A stretch of 64,000 bases of DNA from an uncultured Flavobacteriaceae bacterium (GTDB lineage Bacteria; Bacteroidota; Bacteroidia; Flavobacteriales; Flavobacteriaceae): NCBI GenBank assembly GCA_905182295.1, contig CAJJAZ010000005.1:1-64000 (forward strand), written 5' to 3'. The notes under the pieces were generated by a model. It ran no database searches and was not told where the DNA came from. It was given only the letters and a program-made list of their open reading frames with translations. Each line of letters opens with the position of its first letter. Position 1 is the first letter of the stretch. The position numbers and the translations under genes are program-made. Below are positions 15,926 to 20,013 of this stretch, piece by piece.

Positions 15926-15970
15926 TGTTTAACTAAAAAAGCTTTAAGGTTAAACAAAATAGTATCTTTG
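15926..15970 (+). promoter_or_regulatory. inverted-repeat operator and promoter of the photolyase operon
   Basis: A perfect 8-bp inverted repeat, TGTTTAAC (15926-15933) and GTTAAACA (15949-15956), has a 15-nt spacer. It lies just upstream of a perfect -7 box TATCTTTG (15963-15970). No TTG is found at the usual -33 distance, as expected for a promoter that needs an activator. The distance from the -7 box to the start codon at 15993 is normal. Confidence 0.6.
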
Positions 15971-15992: not shown

Positions 15993-16487
15993 ATGCAACT
16001 ATACCAATTACACGCAAAACAATGTATTAAAACTGATATGCATACTGCTTGGGAATTCTTGTCAGACCCTAAAAACTTGCAAAGAATTACGCCTGAAGCC
16101 ATGGGCTTTAATATACTAGCTGGTGCAGACAGAAAAATGTTTTCTGGCCAAGTCATTCATTATACCGTAAGCCCTTTTCCAGGGATTACCACCAAATGGG
16201 TTACTGAGATAACGCATGTAGAAAATGGAAAGTACTTTGTAGACGAACAGCGGTTTGGCCCCTATGCTTTATGGCACCACAAACATTTTATTAGAGAAAT
16301 TGAGGGAGGTGTAGAAATGGAAGACATTATTGACTATAAAATTCCTTTTGGGATTTTAGGGCAAATGCTGCACCCCATTCTTGTGAAGCCTCAGTTAAAA
16401 AAGATATTTGCACATAGAGAAAAAGCACTTAAAGAATTATTTGGTCAGTTACCTAACCCAACAACCCTAAGTTTAAAAAAAATATAA
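15993..16487 (+). CDS. SRPBCC family ligand-binding protein
   Basis: This 164-residue START/Bet v1-like protein resembles the group annotated as cell-division-inhibitor-like SRPBCC proteins. Visible features are the N-terminal AWEFLSDPKNLQRITPEAMGF, the central WVTEITHVE and FVDEQRFGPYALWHH strands, and IDYKIPFG. It probably binds a hydrophobic ligand; nothing catalytic is evident. It is the first gene of a four-gene unit with an SDR and two photolyase-family proteins. This arrangement suggests a light- or stress-induced set. The next gene begins 2 bp after the stop. Confidence 0.85.
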   Translation: MQLYQLHAKQCIKTDMHTAWEFLSDPKNLQRITPEAMGFNILAGADRKMFSGQVIHYTVSPFPGITTKWVTEITHVENGKYFVDEQRFGPYALWHHKHFIREIEGGVEMEDIIDYKIPFGILGQMLHPILVKPQLKKIFAHREKALKELFGQLPNPTTLSLKKI

Positions 16488-16489
16488 TT

Positions 16490-17179
16490 ATGAAAAATAT
16501 TGTCATCATTGGAGGCTCTCATGGAATTGGTCTTGAAACAGTAAAAATACTGTCTCAAGACCACCAGGTACATTTATTCTCAAGAACTGTTCCCGAAGTT
16601 TCATTGCCTCATGTAAACCACAGCGTATTTGATGTACTTACAGACGCCTTCCCTATTGATCAAATCAATACACCCATAGATGGATTTGTGTACTGTCCAG
16701 GTTCTATTAACTTAAAGCCACTTAAAATGCTTTCTAACGAAGCTTTTAGAGCAGACATGGAAATAAATTTCTTTGCTATGTTACCTATTGTTCAGGCCAT
16801 TATGCCAAAAATGAATGAAGGAAGTAGTATGGTCTTTTACAGTACTGTAGCAGTGGCTATGGGTATGCCATTTCACGCCAGTATAGCTGCAGCAAAAGGT
16901 GCTGTTGAAGGTTTTGTAAAGTCTATTGCTGCTGAAAATGCACCCAAACTTAGGGTGAATTGTATTGCGCCATCATTAACCAATACTCCATTGGCTGGAC
17001 GCTTACTAAATAACGACAAAAAAAGAGAGATAATGGATGCAAGGCACCCATTAAAAAGAGTGGGCACTGCCGGTGATATTGCAGAAATGACTACGTTTTT
17101 ACTTTCAGACAAAAGCAGCTGGATGAGTGGACAAATCATTGGATTAGATGGTGGAATGGGAAGTTTAAACGTACATTAG
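16490..17179 (+). CDS. SDR family NAD(P)-dependent oxidoreductase
   Basis: This is a classical-type short-chain dehydrogenase of 229 residues. The coenzyme motif is GGSHGIG (residues 8-14). The catalytic Tyr-x-x-x-Lys position is altered: where YxxxK is expected, the sequence after the STVAVAMGMPFH segment reads HASIAAAKGAVEGF, so the Tyr is replaced by His while the Lys is kept. C-terminal GQIIGLDGGMG is typical. The substrate is unknown. It is second in the photolyase operon and could act on a small molecule linked to light stress, but this is inference only. Confidence 0.85.
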   Translation: MKNIVIIGGSHGIGLETVKILSQDHQVHLFSRTVPEVSLPHVNHSVFDVLTDAFPIDQINTPIDGFVYCPGSINLKPLKMLSNEAFRADMEINFFAMLPIVQAIMPKMNEGSSMVFYSTVAVAMGMPFHASIAAAKGAVEGFVKSIAAENAPKLRVNCIAPSLTNTPLAGRLLNNDKKREIMDARHPLKRVGTAGDIAEMTTFLLSDKSSWMSGQIIGLDGGMGSLNVH

Positions 17180-17218
17180 AAGGTTAAAAAAAATAATTTT
17201 AGCTCAAGCAACATATTT

Positions 17219-18535
17219 ATGAAGGAAGAAATTGTCATTTTTTGGTTTAGAAGGGATTTGAGGTACAATGACAATACTGGATTATCTAAGGCCCTTTTAA
17301 GTAGAAAAAAGGTATTGCCCATTTTTATCTTTGATACGGAAATCTTAGATATGCTCCCTAATAACGATCCTAGGCTTCAATTTATTCTTAACCAACTACA
17401 ACAAATAGACCTGCACTTTAAAACACAGTTTCAATCTGGGGTGCAATCCTACCACAACAGACCATTAGAAGTATTTAAATCTCTAATAGAAACATCCAAC
17501 AATTTTAAAGTGTGTGGGGTGTACACCAATGAAGACTATGAACCCTATGCAACACAAAGAGACTTAGAGATTAAAACTTATTTGGCTTTGAAATCAGTAG
17601 ATTTTCACTCCTTTAAAGATCAGGTTGTTTTTGAAAAAGACCAGGTCACCAAAGAAGACGGCAAACCTTATGTAGTCTACACCCCATACAAAAACAAATG
17701 GTTGGGTATTTTTGACCAACAATACCCCAACGGATTTCAAGCCCTTGATATGCCTTTTGAAAACCTTTACAAAATGAATACTAGTCTTCATGATATGAAA
17801 GCCCTAGGTTTTTCTAAAGCAGAAATTGAAGTGCCTCAATATTCGGTTACTGCAGCGCTCATAGAAGCATATGAGGCAAAAAGGAATTTCCCGAGCATAG
17901 AAAATGGCACCTCTAAATTGGGGCCACACCTTAGGTTTGGGACGGTATCCGTTAGGGCCCTTGTTCAAAAAGCCAAAGGACAAAAAAACCAAGTATTCTT
18001 GAGTGAACTTATTTGGAGGGAGTTCTTTATGCAAATATTATGGTATTTTCCTCATACCCCTACAAAGGCATTTAAACCTGCCTATGATCGCATTGAATGG
18101 AGAAATAATACCACGGAATTTGAGCGCTGGAAAAATGGCACAACAGGCTATCCTCTGGTAGACGCTGGAATGAGAGAACTCAATGCAACTGGAACCATGC
18201 ACAACAGGGTTCGCATGCTTGTGGCTAGCTTTCTTTGCAAACACCTATTGATTGATTGGAGGTGGGGTGAAGCTTATTTTGCAGAAAAATTATTAGATTT
18301 TGAATTGGCCAGTAATGTTGGAAACTGGCAATGGGCTGCTGGTTCTGGAGTAGACGCTGCCCCCTATTTTAGAATATTTAACCCCACCACCCAAATAGAT
18401 AAATTTGACAAACAGCATATTTACCTTAAAAAATGGGTGTCAGATTTAGAGGAACGTACCTATCCTAGCCCTATGGTAGACCATAAAATGGCCAGAAAAA
18501 GATGCCTGGATACTTATAAAAAAGCTTTGGCTTAA
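17219..18535 (+). CDS. phrB: deoxyribodipyrimidine photolyase (CPD class I type)
   Basis: This 438-residue photolyase/cryptochrome has an N-terminal antenna-binding alpha/beta domain ([17 protein letters not shown] at residues 6-22) and a C-terminal FAD domain. The Trp electron-transfer triad is complete by alignment with E. coli PhrB: W in [13 protein letters not shown] in LIDWRWGE and W in [10 protein letters not shown]. The Asn beside the flavin N5 (SNVGNW) and the [11 protein letters not shown] segment are also present. It should repair cyclobutane pyrimidine dimers using blue light. The second photolyase-like gene starts 2 bp after the stop. Confidence 0.93.
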
Positions 18536-18537
18536 AA

Positions 18538-20013
18538 ATGGTTGTAGTTTGGTTTAAAAGAGATTTAAGACTAGAAGACCACGAACCATTAACTAAAGCT
18601 TTGGCTAGTGGAGAAAAGGTGCTACTGCTCTATTCGTTTGAAAGCTTTTGGACTCAGGACCCACATTACAGCTACTTACATATAGATTTTATTCAAGAAG
18701 GATTAAAAGCAATACAATTAAAGCTAAGGGAATACGACACCAAAATATTAATCCTTTCCGATTATATTCCTGAAATACTTCAAAAAATTCATTCCCAAGA
18801 ACCTATTACATCTATATATTCACATATGGAAGCGGGAATGGATATTACTTACACAAGGGATAAAGCGGTAAAAATATGGTGTACTAAAAATAGTGTTCAT
18901 TGGCATGAATTTGCCCAAAATGGTCTATGGAGGGCGCTAAAGAACCGTCAAAAATGGCGGGAGCACTGGATCAGCCAAATGAAAGCACCTATTCACACCC
19001 CTAGCTTCCTTCCAAGTACCTATTTCACTTCAAAAGAAATAGATGGATTAAGTGCCGCGCTAAAACTAGTTCCTTTGGATTTAAACATTCATCACAAAAC
19101 AGGCATTCAAATTGGCGGAAGTTTAAATGGATGGAAATACTTACATAGTTTTATCACGAAACGAATTAGTGGGTACCAAAAGTATTATTCTAAACCATTA
19201 GAATCTAGACTTCATAGTGGTCGAATTTCTCCCTATCTGGCTTGGGGAATGCTCTCTACCAAACAAGTACTTCAATATGTTACTCAAAATCAAAAAAAAG
19301 TGAGTAACAAACGAAACGTCAATGGCTTTTTATCTCGATTGAGCTGGCAAGCCCATTTTATTCAGAAATTTGAAATGGAGCCTAGTATTGAGTTTGACGC
19401 TGTAAACAAAGGGTACGCAACGCTTAACAAGACGGTAATTCCCGCCTATCAATTAGCTTGGCGACAAGGACAAACAGGAGTGCCTATGGTAGACGCCGCC
19501 ATGAGATGTCTGGTTCAAACGGGTTTTGTTAATTTTAGACTAAGGGCCATGCTGGCTTCTTTCTTCACCCATTTACTCTGGCAACCCTGGCAAGACTGCT
19601 CGCCGCATTTAGCACAACACTTTTTAGATTTTGAACCAGGGATTCATTTTCCCCAACTTCAAATGCAAGCGGGTGAAACGGGGATAAATACCATTAGAAT
19701 ATACAACCCAGTTAAAAATGGATTGGACCACGACCCAAAGGGAATTTTTATTAAGAAATGGGTGCCAGAATTGGCTTTAATACCGGAAGCTTATGTGCAC
19801 GAACCTTGGAAAATGCCTCCATTAGAAGCCGCTTTTTTAAATTTCACATTGGGTAGCGATTATCCAGCACCCATCGTAAATCTTGAAAAGAGCAGAAAAA
19901 ATGCTGCAGACCAGTTGTGGGGATTAAGAAAAACTAATCTGGTTAAATTAGAAGGGAAAAGAATTTTAGGCACACATGTAGTCCCTAAAAAACCCTGTAA
20001 AAAAACAAGCTAA
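18538..20013 (+). CDS. divergent photolyase/cryptochrome-like flavoprotein
   Basis: This 491-residue protein has the same two-domain layout as its neighbour. The antenna domain begins [17 protein letters not shown] (residues 2-18), and the FAD domain holds [14 protein letters not shown] near residue 268 and [15 protein letters not shown] near 310. The region that in true photolyases reads [22 protein letters not shown] here reads [23 protein letters not shown]. The flavin-proximal Trp of the triad and the flavin N5 Asn are therefore both absent. The distal Trp positions (AWRQGQ, PWQDCS) remain. It is probably a photoreceptor-like or non-canonical repair protein rather than a second CPD photolyase. 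Confidence 0.85.

Follow-up and report, generated by a model that had tools for sequence, protein, structure and literature searches.

What does a photolyase-like protein do once its lesion pocket and most of its tryptophan relay have been replaced? The question is raised by a gene at positions 18538..20013 (plus strand) of a 64,000-nucleotide stretch of DNA from an uncultured Flavobacteriaceae bacterium (assembly GCA_905182295.1, contig CAJJAZ010000005.1, positions 1 to 64,000), which was analysed as a whole and is called the window here. The gene encodes a photolyase-like protein of 491 residues, which we name CryX, and it starts 2 bases past the stop codon of a second photolyase gene, PHR. 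A preliminary description of the window had noted that CryX lacks the first tryptophan of the electron-transfer triad and the asparagine near flavin N5, had proposed altered photochemistry with a light-sensing or auxiliary role, and had named structure prediction and alignment with the photolyase classes as checks. The open reading frame (ORF), Pfam domains, structural model, residues and tree place CryX in a clade that has His378 and no Trp382 (E. coli PHR, 1dnp, numbering, used throughout for aligned positions). Judging from sequence comparisons, we estimate at roughly even odds that CryX represents a conserved photolyase/cryptochrome subfamily, most likely a light-driven DNA-repair flavoenzyme with a new lesion specificity.

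The predicted fold is that of a complete photolyase or cryptochrome. An AlphaFold2 model based on a 60-row alignment has a pLDDT of 93.1 and a pTM of 0.91, and all 50 PDB entries listed by VIA-align are photolyases or cryptochromes (Z 33.8-39.5, identity 19-25%). Pfam places an N-terminal DNA_photolyase (antenna) domain at residues 2-132 (PF00875, 63 bits; 18541..18933, plus strand) and an FAD-binding domain at residues 264-460 (PF03441, 208.8 bits; 19327..19917, plus strand), both above the gathering cut-offs and in the classical order; the scan of the window's CryX found no others. On the model and these domains, CryX is a full-length member of the superfamily.

CryX fits none of the established families within it. 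Five NCBIfam photolyase/cryptochrome models match the protein, each with a score under its cut-off: 131.3 bits against 317 for CRY-DASH (TIGR02765), 137 against 603.85 for plant cryptochromes (TIGR02766), 42.9 against 550 for class II cyclobutane pyrimidine dimer (CPD) photolyases (TIGR00591, phr2), 136 against 506 for PRK10674 and 116 against 885 for 8-HDF. Its best PDB sequence matches are the CRY-DASH proteins of Synechocystis (1np7, E 4.7e-37) and Arthrospira (6kii, E 1e-33), yet DASH rows, unlike CryX, keep E274, N341, N378 and W382 and form a separate clade (100/100) outside which CryX falls on the tree. At position 378 it has His370 and not the Asp of the plant cryptochromes. With class I CPD photolyases (E. 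coli PhrB and A. nidulans PHR, 22-25% identical) it shares the domain order, the fold (1owl Z 37.4, 1dnp Z 35.5) and Y222, R344, D372, W277 and R342, but it has R, F, A and M at the pocket positions E274, N341, M345 and W384, H at N378, and L, W and K at the triad positions W382, W359 and W306. Phe333 and Ala337 occupy positions 341 and 345, which we take to be those of the catalytic His pair of (6-4) photolyases, the group that includes the animal cryptochromes. No match to PF04244, the mark of FeS-BCP (prokaryotic (6-4) photolyases), was found in CryX at E 1e-3; these proteins are frequent neighbours of CryX, which itself has PF00875. That domain precedes PF03441 in CryX, whereas in NewPHL, the short photolyase-like proteins, the accessible parts of two reports describe an inverted order (PMC13274461, PMC9426592). 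We define a CryX clade here by R274, F341, A or S at 345, H378, M384 and the lack of Trp at 382, all of which the window's protein shows.

The extent of the replacement became apparent from a table in which 66 CryX rows were aligned with 16 PHR, DASH and plant-CRY rows. The 66 comprise the window and 59 of 80 loci from a contig search (60 rows, alignment A2, from which the other 21 loci were left out) together with loci L017, L020, L114-L116 and L147. In known CPD photolyases the walls of the CPD pocket are formed by Glu274, Asn341, Met345, Trp277 and Trp384, and flavin N5 is faced by Asn378; Trp382, Trp359 and Trp306 form the photoreduction relay, and W277, R342 and R397 contact DNA. Every one of the 66 rows has Arg for Glu274 (Arg267 in the window; codon 19336..19338, plus strand), Phe for Asn341 (Phe333), Met for Trp384 (Met376) and His for Phe280, and Met345 is Ala in 63 rows and Ser in 3 (Ala337; codons 333-337 span 19534..19548, plus strand). 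This rebuilt pocket had escaped the preliminary description. The asparagine whose loss it did report is His in 66/66 rows (His370), and the first triad Trp, 382, is Leu in 33 rows, Ile in 17, Phe in 10, Val in 4 and Thr in 2 (Leu374). His370, Leu374 and Met376 all lie in a signature stretch, residues 364-391 (19627..19710, plus strand). Position 306, overlooked earlier, also lacks Trp in all 66 rows (Lys298); thus the columns show no Trp at either the proximal (382) or the distal (306) position that could form part of an alternative chain.

Only Trp359 is retained from the triad, in 66/66 rows (Trp351; codon 19588..19590, plus strand), and W316 is kept in 64/66. Tyr222, Trp277, Arg342, Arg344 and Asp372 are likewise unchanged in all 66 rows; the FAD-site positions Tyr222, Arg344, Asp372 and the acidic residue at 374 are thereby kept, and CryX R387, the equivalent of Arg397, is invariant across the 60 rows of A2. 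Exceptions occur elsewhere in the clade: Trp359 is Gly in Duffyella and Ser in Marinobacter, the Marinobacter protein (L170) also has M341 and V384, and a Pseudorhodobacter protein (L178) has Leu at 277 and 384. As read from the alignment, most of the predicted lesion pocket, flavin surroundings and relay is swapped for a fixed new set, and the FAD site and several putative DNA contacts stay. The altered photochemistry proposed earlier is a fair inference, as two of the three triad tryptophans are absent from all 66 rows and the triad is described as essential for recovering oxidised photolyase in vitro in the accessible part of a recent review (PMC10940379).

A maximum-likelihood tree of 51 rows, rooted on other photolyase families, indicates that these changes arose in order. 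The 34 rows with Arg274 and Ala345 lie on one side of a branch (support 100/99) and 17 PHR, plant CRY and DASH rows on the other, which rules out a sporadic PHR paralogue; Phe341 is present in all 34 except Marinobacter. Within the 34, a 30-row branch, also supported at 100/99, has His378 in every row, Marinobacter included, and Trp382 in none; the lineages that diverge earlier are a Nostoc protein (L169; Asp378, Trp382) and three from haloarchaea (Asn378, Trp382). Marinobacter and Nostoc sit on long branches (2.22 and 1.8) and the exact placement of both is unsure; a test of the 29 rows without Marinobacter as one clade gave a p-AU of 0.148. The pairing of Asn378 with Trp382 recurs in two additional haloarchaea, and that of His378 with a residue other than Trp at 382 in three additional Proteobacteria. 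A quick tree, the only one to include loci L177-L181, gathered 16 rows of a group that we call clade B on one branch (SH-aLRT 92, which is not strong) and five haloarchaea on another (100). A Methylobacterium relative (L152; Thr378, Val382) was dropped from the 51-row tree after an earlier tree placed it inside the clade with a branch length of 4.9, and a Halorubrum relative (L173) entered no tree.

The haloarchaeal and Nostoc relatives, annotated as 'FAD-binding domain-containing' proteins (L154, L157, L171, L180 and L181; L169), have the R274/F341/A345 pocket of CryX and, in four of the six rows, sit on the outer side of its 100/99 branch; unlike CryX they have Trp382 and Asn378 (Asp378 in Nostoc). 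Because these relatives share the Arg/Phe/Ala pocket yet keep Trp382 and Asn or Asp at 378, the lesion pocket changed first on this rooting, and the change of Asn378 to His and the tryptophan losses came later, probably in a single episode. They are natural intermediates, with the pocket already altered and the proximal Trp still present.

Several observations indicate that CryX is a maintained gene. The same ORF is present in four congeners, 91-93% identical, which rules out a sequencing or frame artefact. The ratios of nonsynonymous to synonymous substitution (dN/dS) against these four are 0.105, 0.073, 0.113 and 0.138, close to the 0.084-0.098 of the neighbouring PHR; for a fifth (L009) the synonymous sites were saturated and no ratio was obtained. 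CryX is under purifying selection by this measure, and a decaying pseudogene is ruled out by the same ratios together with the invariance of its residues across phyla.

The clade is also widespread. By score, CryX occurs in 40 of 296 sampled Bacteroidota genomes, in 30 of 149 at class level and in 18 of 60 near relatives, with the window's own genome counted in each sample; among near relatives CryX was counted at 231 bits or more, other photolyases reaching at most 92. The contig search returned at least 583 relatives, of which the 80 kept for analysis all have Bacteroidota titles. A plasmid search (52 records with E no higher than 1e-30, of which at least one, from Spirosoma, has the residues of an ordinary photolyase) added Vibrio, Salinivibrio, Pseudoalteromonas, Duffyella, Marinobacter, Tritonibacter, Novosphingobium, Deinococcus, haloarchaea and Nostoc. 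The CryX clade spans Bacteroidota, Proteobacteria and Deinococcus. Ten phage records match CryX at only 24-29% identity. Individual records call for comment: a partial CryX lies near the end of a viral-classed contig (IMG/VR 3300009434_001162; L182/L146) that may be host DNA; the Halorubrum BOL3-1 relative (L173, 1926-3524) is annotated as two plasmid ORFs; and the Tritonibacter mobilis copy (NZ_LR027555.1) matches from residue 187 only, under a transposase annotation, and is perhaps interrupted by an insertion. The CryX of locus L020 (G007:C45), which belongs by assembly to the window's genus, groups with Tritonibacter in two trees (100/93 and 100/99) and looks like assembly contamination or transfer.

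Two features outside the core protein connect CryX with DNA repair. In Deinococcus, all seven plasmid-search records encode CryX and a uracil-DNA glycosylase (UDG) domain in one open frame of 751-774 residues with the GQDPYH and HPSP motifs and no internal stop. PF03167 matched in the three fusions that were scanned, and the one compared with NCBIfam is of the ung type. The CryX portions (e.g. WP_013622932.1) fall in clade B and have R274, F341, A345, H378 and M384; they differ from the window's protein by the added ung-type domain. RefSeq names these proteins uracil-DNA glycosylase, and in D. gobiensis the start is placed inside CryX. In Deinococcus sp. QL22 the genes for DNA polymerase IV (DinB) and a relative of spore photoproduct lyase lie downstream of the fusion. 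A 711-residue frame in genome G287 was ruled out as a further fusion, being a read-through upstream of the gene.

The second feature is found at the C terminus. Sliding clamps are bound by ligands with a short consensus, the clamp-ligand motif or the PIP (PCNA-interacting protein) motif, PCNA being proliferating cell nuclear antigen. The strict clamp-ligand pattern occurs within the last 25 residues of 6/9 clade-B proteins outside Deinococcus (seven are from Proteobacteria; the other two, L020 and L147, come from genomes classified as Bacteroidota), with two near-misses; examples are QLDLF at the very end in Duffyella and QLGLF in Pseudoalteromonas THAF3. Most haloarchaeal relatives have PIP-like tails, with QxxLxx[F/Y] in 5/6. 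The expectation from shuffling is at most 0.026 per tail for the clamp pattern and at most 0.012 for PIP. The patterns were set, the first slightly widened, after the initial tails had been seen; among tails read afterwards, 2/3 bacterial and 2/2 haloarchaeal ones match. Seven control tails (Nostoc and six PHR or DASH proteins) gave no clamp match and one PIP match, in the Spirosoma PHR. The QPxLF found in 6/7 Deinococcus proteins was not counted as a CryX motif; it immediately precedes the UDG domain and probably represents the N-terminus of the glycosylase itself.

In the window CryX is the last of four closely packed genes on the plus strand (15993-20013), separated by 2, 39 and 2 bases. 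An SRPBCC-like protein of 164 residues (15993..16487), whose label rests on a Pfam Polyketide_cyc match below the cut-off (E 0.016), is followed by a short-chain dehydrogenase/reductase (SDR) of 229 residues (16490..17179; PF13561/PF00106), by PHR (17219..18535, 438 residues; PF00875 and PF03441) and by CryX. PHR is a class I-type photolyase paralogue with PDB relatives 2e0i, 1dnp and 1owl, and is intact, as the preliminary description stated: it retains Glu274, Trp277, Asn341, Met345, Asn378, Trp384 and all three triad tryptophans. Upstream, at 15963-15970 and 22 bases before the first gene, the sequence TATCTTTG resembles what we take to be the Bacteroidota -7 box; we make no claim from this single short match. 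The bipartite Bacteroidota promoter pattern matched 5 times in the whole window against 6.7 expected, and no promoter is claimed.

The pairing with PHR, SDR and SRPBCC-like genes, pointed out earlier, is real and recurs across Bacteroidota. We surveyed 80 Bacteroidota loci over at most 8 kb on each side, many of them shorter so that counts are lower bounds, naming each neighbour cluster from one scanned member, or from the window's genes for SDR and SRPBCC-like. The clusters found were SDR at 55 loci, SRPBCC-like at 49, TIGR03643 at 49, FeS-BCP at 47, flavin reductase (PF01613) at 37, NAD-binding/DUF2867 and ABC1-type kinase at 34 each, TetR at 33, folE at 27 and TspO at 26. The gene directly upstream of CryX is FeS-BCP at 40 and class I-type PHR at 13 of 76 loci; the other four of the 80 went uncounted here, having Asn or Ile at position 375, outside the motif pattern used, although their ORFs are present. 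CryX in Bacteroidota thus often lies in photolyase-rich islands, among other genes of the family. Many loci also have small, zinc-ribbon-like DUF2256-like ORFs accompanying photolyase genes, upstream of DASH or beside CryX (PF10013 in two that were scanned; 56 pattern matches over the loci examined at that stage). The window's genome, 61% complete, holds a second island on contig C4 at about 118.0-121.5 kb (G000:C4:117956-121513; L174, 8.0-11.5 kb), where genes for a flavin reductase, a DUF2256-like ORF, a DASH-type protein and FeS-BCP adjoin; this DASH-type protein has Lys at the Trp306 position. Outside Bacteroidota, a Methylobacterium gene for a 353-residue relative that matches from query residue 172 is followed by one for a methyl-accepting chemotaxis protein (L152, 3833-6490), with bacteriorhodopsin and beta-carotene dioxygenase genes close by, and a CryX-like gene in Duffyella likewise precedes a methyl-accepting chemotaxis protein gene (L155, 5995-9173).

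The rebuilt pocket, the UDG fusion, the clamp-like tails and the photolyase islands together make a repair enzyme the best reading of CryX. Such an enzyme would bind DNA and flip some lesion, not a plain CPD, into the rebuilt pocket, where excited FADH-, the reduced form of flavin adenine dinucleotide, would donate the electron for its repair. Loss of the triad alone does not mean that CryX is a light sensor, because repair needs only FADH-, described as the sole catalytic form in photolyases (PMC10940379, accessible part). Since a flavin reductase is encoded near CryX at 37 of the 80 loci, and directly after it in Vibrio pelagius (PF01613), we infer that a cellular reductant, and not photoreduction through the triad, may keep the flavin reduced; a cell with a flavin reductase could perhaps do without the relay. 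His370 would tune the flavin. A sliding clamp probably recruits the enzyme in clade B and the haloarchaea, and the joining to UDG in Deinococcus would fit lesions that leave uracil, for example dimers with deaminated cytosine, which is a guess.

In its most specific form the proposal would make CryX a further photolyase class, with a His-tuned and chemically reduced flavin and no Trp relay, acting on a lesion that the cell's own CPD, single-strand CPD (ssCPD) and (6-4) enzymes leave untouched. Dimers with deaminated cytosine (uracil) or another uracil-yielding photoproduct are the best guess for this lesion; CryX would be handed to replication through the clamp (bacterial in clade B, PCNA in haloarchaeal relatives), and in Deinococcus the fused glycosylase would remove the uracil that remains after photoreversal. 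We hold this full scheme only tentatively and consider it improbable as a whole.

Several observations weigh against a repair enzyme. Known CPD photolyases use Glu274, Asn341, Met345 and Asn378, all lost in CryX, so that loss of repair is the other simple explanation, and Trp277 is not universal, being Leu in Pseudorhodobacter. The glycosylase fusion is seen in Deinococcus only, and neither the clamp nor the PIP motif occurs in the 60 Bacteroidota tails, the window's included, or in those of Salinivibrio, V. pelagius and L017 (0/3 for both). A flavin reductase gene was found near CryX at under half of the surveyed loci, and the window's genome carries it on a different contig from CryX, beside DASH and FeS-BCP. 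Finally, the chemoreceptor genes of Methylobacterium and Duffyella stand directly downstream of the CryX relatives.

The last point would suit a non-catalytic blue-light receptor, a bacterial cryptochrome in which a change of flavin state near His370 is signalled to a partner. The loss of the CPD-pocket residues and the triad, the presence of TetR regulators (33/80), TspO and folE in the islands, and the Asp at 378 of the Nostoc relative, as in the Arabidopsis CRY1 row, are consistent with this. However, a pocket so strictly conserved suggests a ligand or substrate, the window's protein has no extra Pfam domain, and the fusion in 7/7 Deinococcus records, the clamp-like or PIP-like tails and the photolyase islands do not favour the light-sensing role suggested earlier. 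In Vibrio cholerae, according to the accessible part of one report, blue light induces photolyase-family genes and a cry1/cry2/phr triple knockout leaves the light transcriptome unchanged (PMC5241685); those three are not shown to be CryX, and Cry1 and Cry2, both called CRY-DASH there, were not used as members. A receptor is a possible but unlikely explanation.

Less likely again is a protein that binds UV lesions in the dark and passes them to excision repair or glycosylases, with light and electron transfer irrelevant. Retention of W277, R342 and R397 alongside the loss of N378, W382 and W306 would suit such a binder, as would the UDG fusion and the clamp-like tails, but the FAD-site residues Y222, R344 and D372, kept in 66/66 rows, would be needless for a pure binding protein, and the islands hold several light-using enzymes.

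It is very doubtful that CryX is an ordinary enzyme of the CPD or (6-4) kind whose changes are cosmetic. Many records are annotated 'deoxyribodipyrimidine photo-lyase', but the E274, N341, M345 and W384 positions are changed (W277 and R342 are kept), and F and A stand at what are presumably the two (6-4) histidine positions. This reading draws some support from Synechococcus RS9916 Phr1. According to the paper on it, UV-C survival of phr1 mutants is 6 times lower while UV-B has no effect, and in an E. coli phr lexA host phr1 improves survival of UV-C, not of UV-B, in a light-dependent manner (PMC9426592). The Phr1 primer peptide GLKRREG fits a motif present in 55/66 CryX and 0/16 other rows, and its end reads QLQLEL; the same source compares Phr1 with a V. 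cholerae cryptochrome and describes flavin-binding residues, the N378 and N341 equivalents included, as conserved in all members of its groups. Membership of Phr1 in the CryX clade is unsure; if it belongs, it would be direct evidence of photorepair, to which we give little weight. Halobacterium Phr1, reported to be 42% identical to Phr2 (PMC10052015), was not used as a member. Least probable is that CryX works on a small molecule and not on DNA, as a flavin photoenzyme or oxidoreductase. Arg267, the Gln-rich signature and the SRPBCC, SDR and flavin reductase neighbours might speak for this; the ordinary photolyases that stand beside those neighbours in the same islands, the UDG fusion and the clamp-like tails speak against it.

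In Pseudomonas, phrB and an SDR gene are described as parts of a single LitR-type region in which light induces many of the genes (PMC9758184). The triad is presented as conserved throughout the family in the part of the review available (PMC10940379); class II enzymes are a known departure (PMC7560933), and so is NewPHL, with its chain reduced to a dyad (PMC8948257), both as given in the accessible text. No description of a photolyase clade with the CryX residues was found in the searchable papers, subscription literature lying mostly outside the search.

CryX is thus a large and well-conserved branch of a textbook family, often filed as CPD photolyase though most of the residues that define that reaction are replaced. 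With one triad Trp of three left, it departs further than class II and NewPHL as the accessible sources describe them. With the UDG fusion and the clamp-like tails, a specific hypothesis about the lesion can be put to the test. Should CryX repair DNA, it may extend the list of lesions that light reverses; if it does not, it would be a widespread bacterial cryptochrome without the Trp triad.

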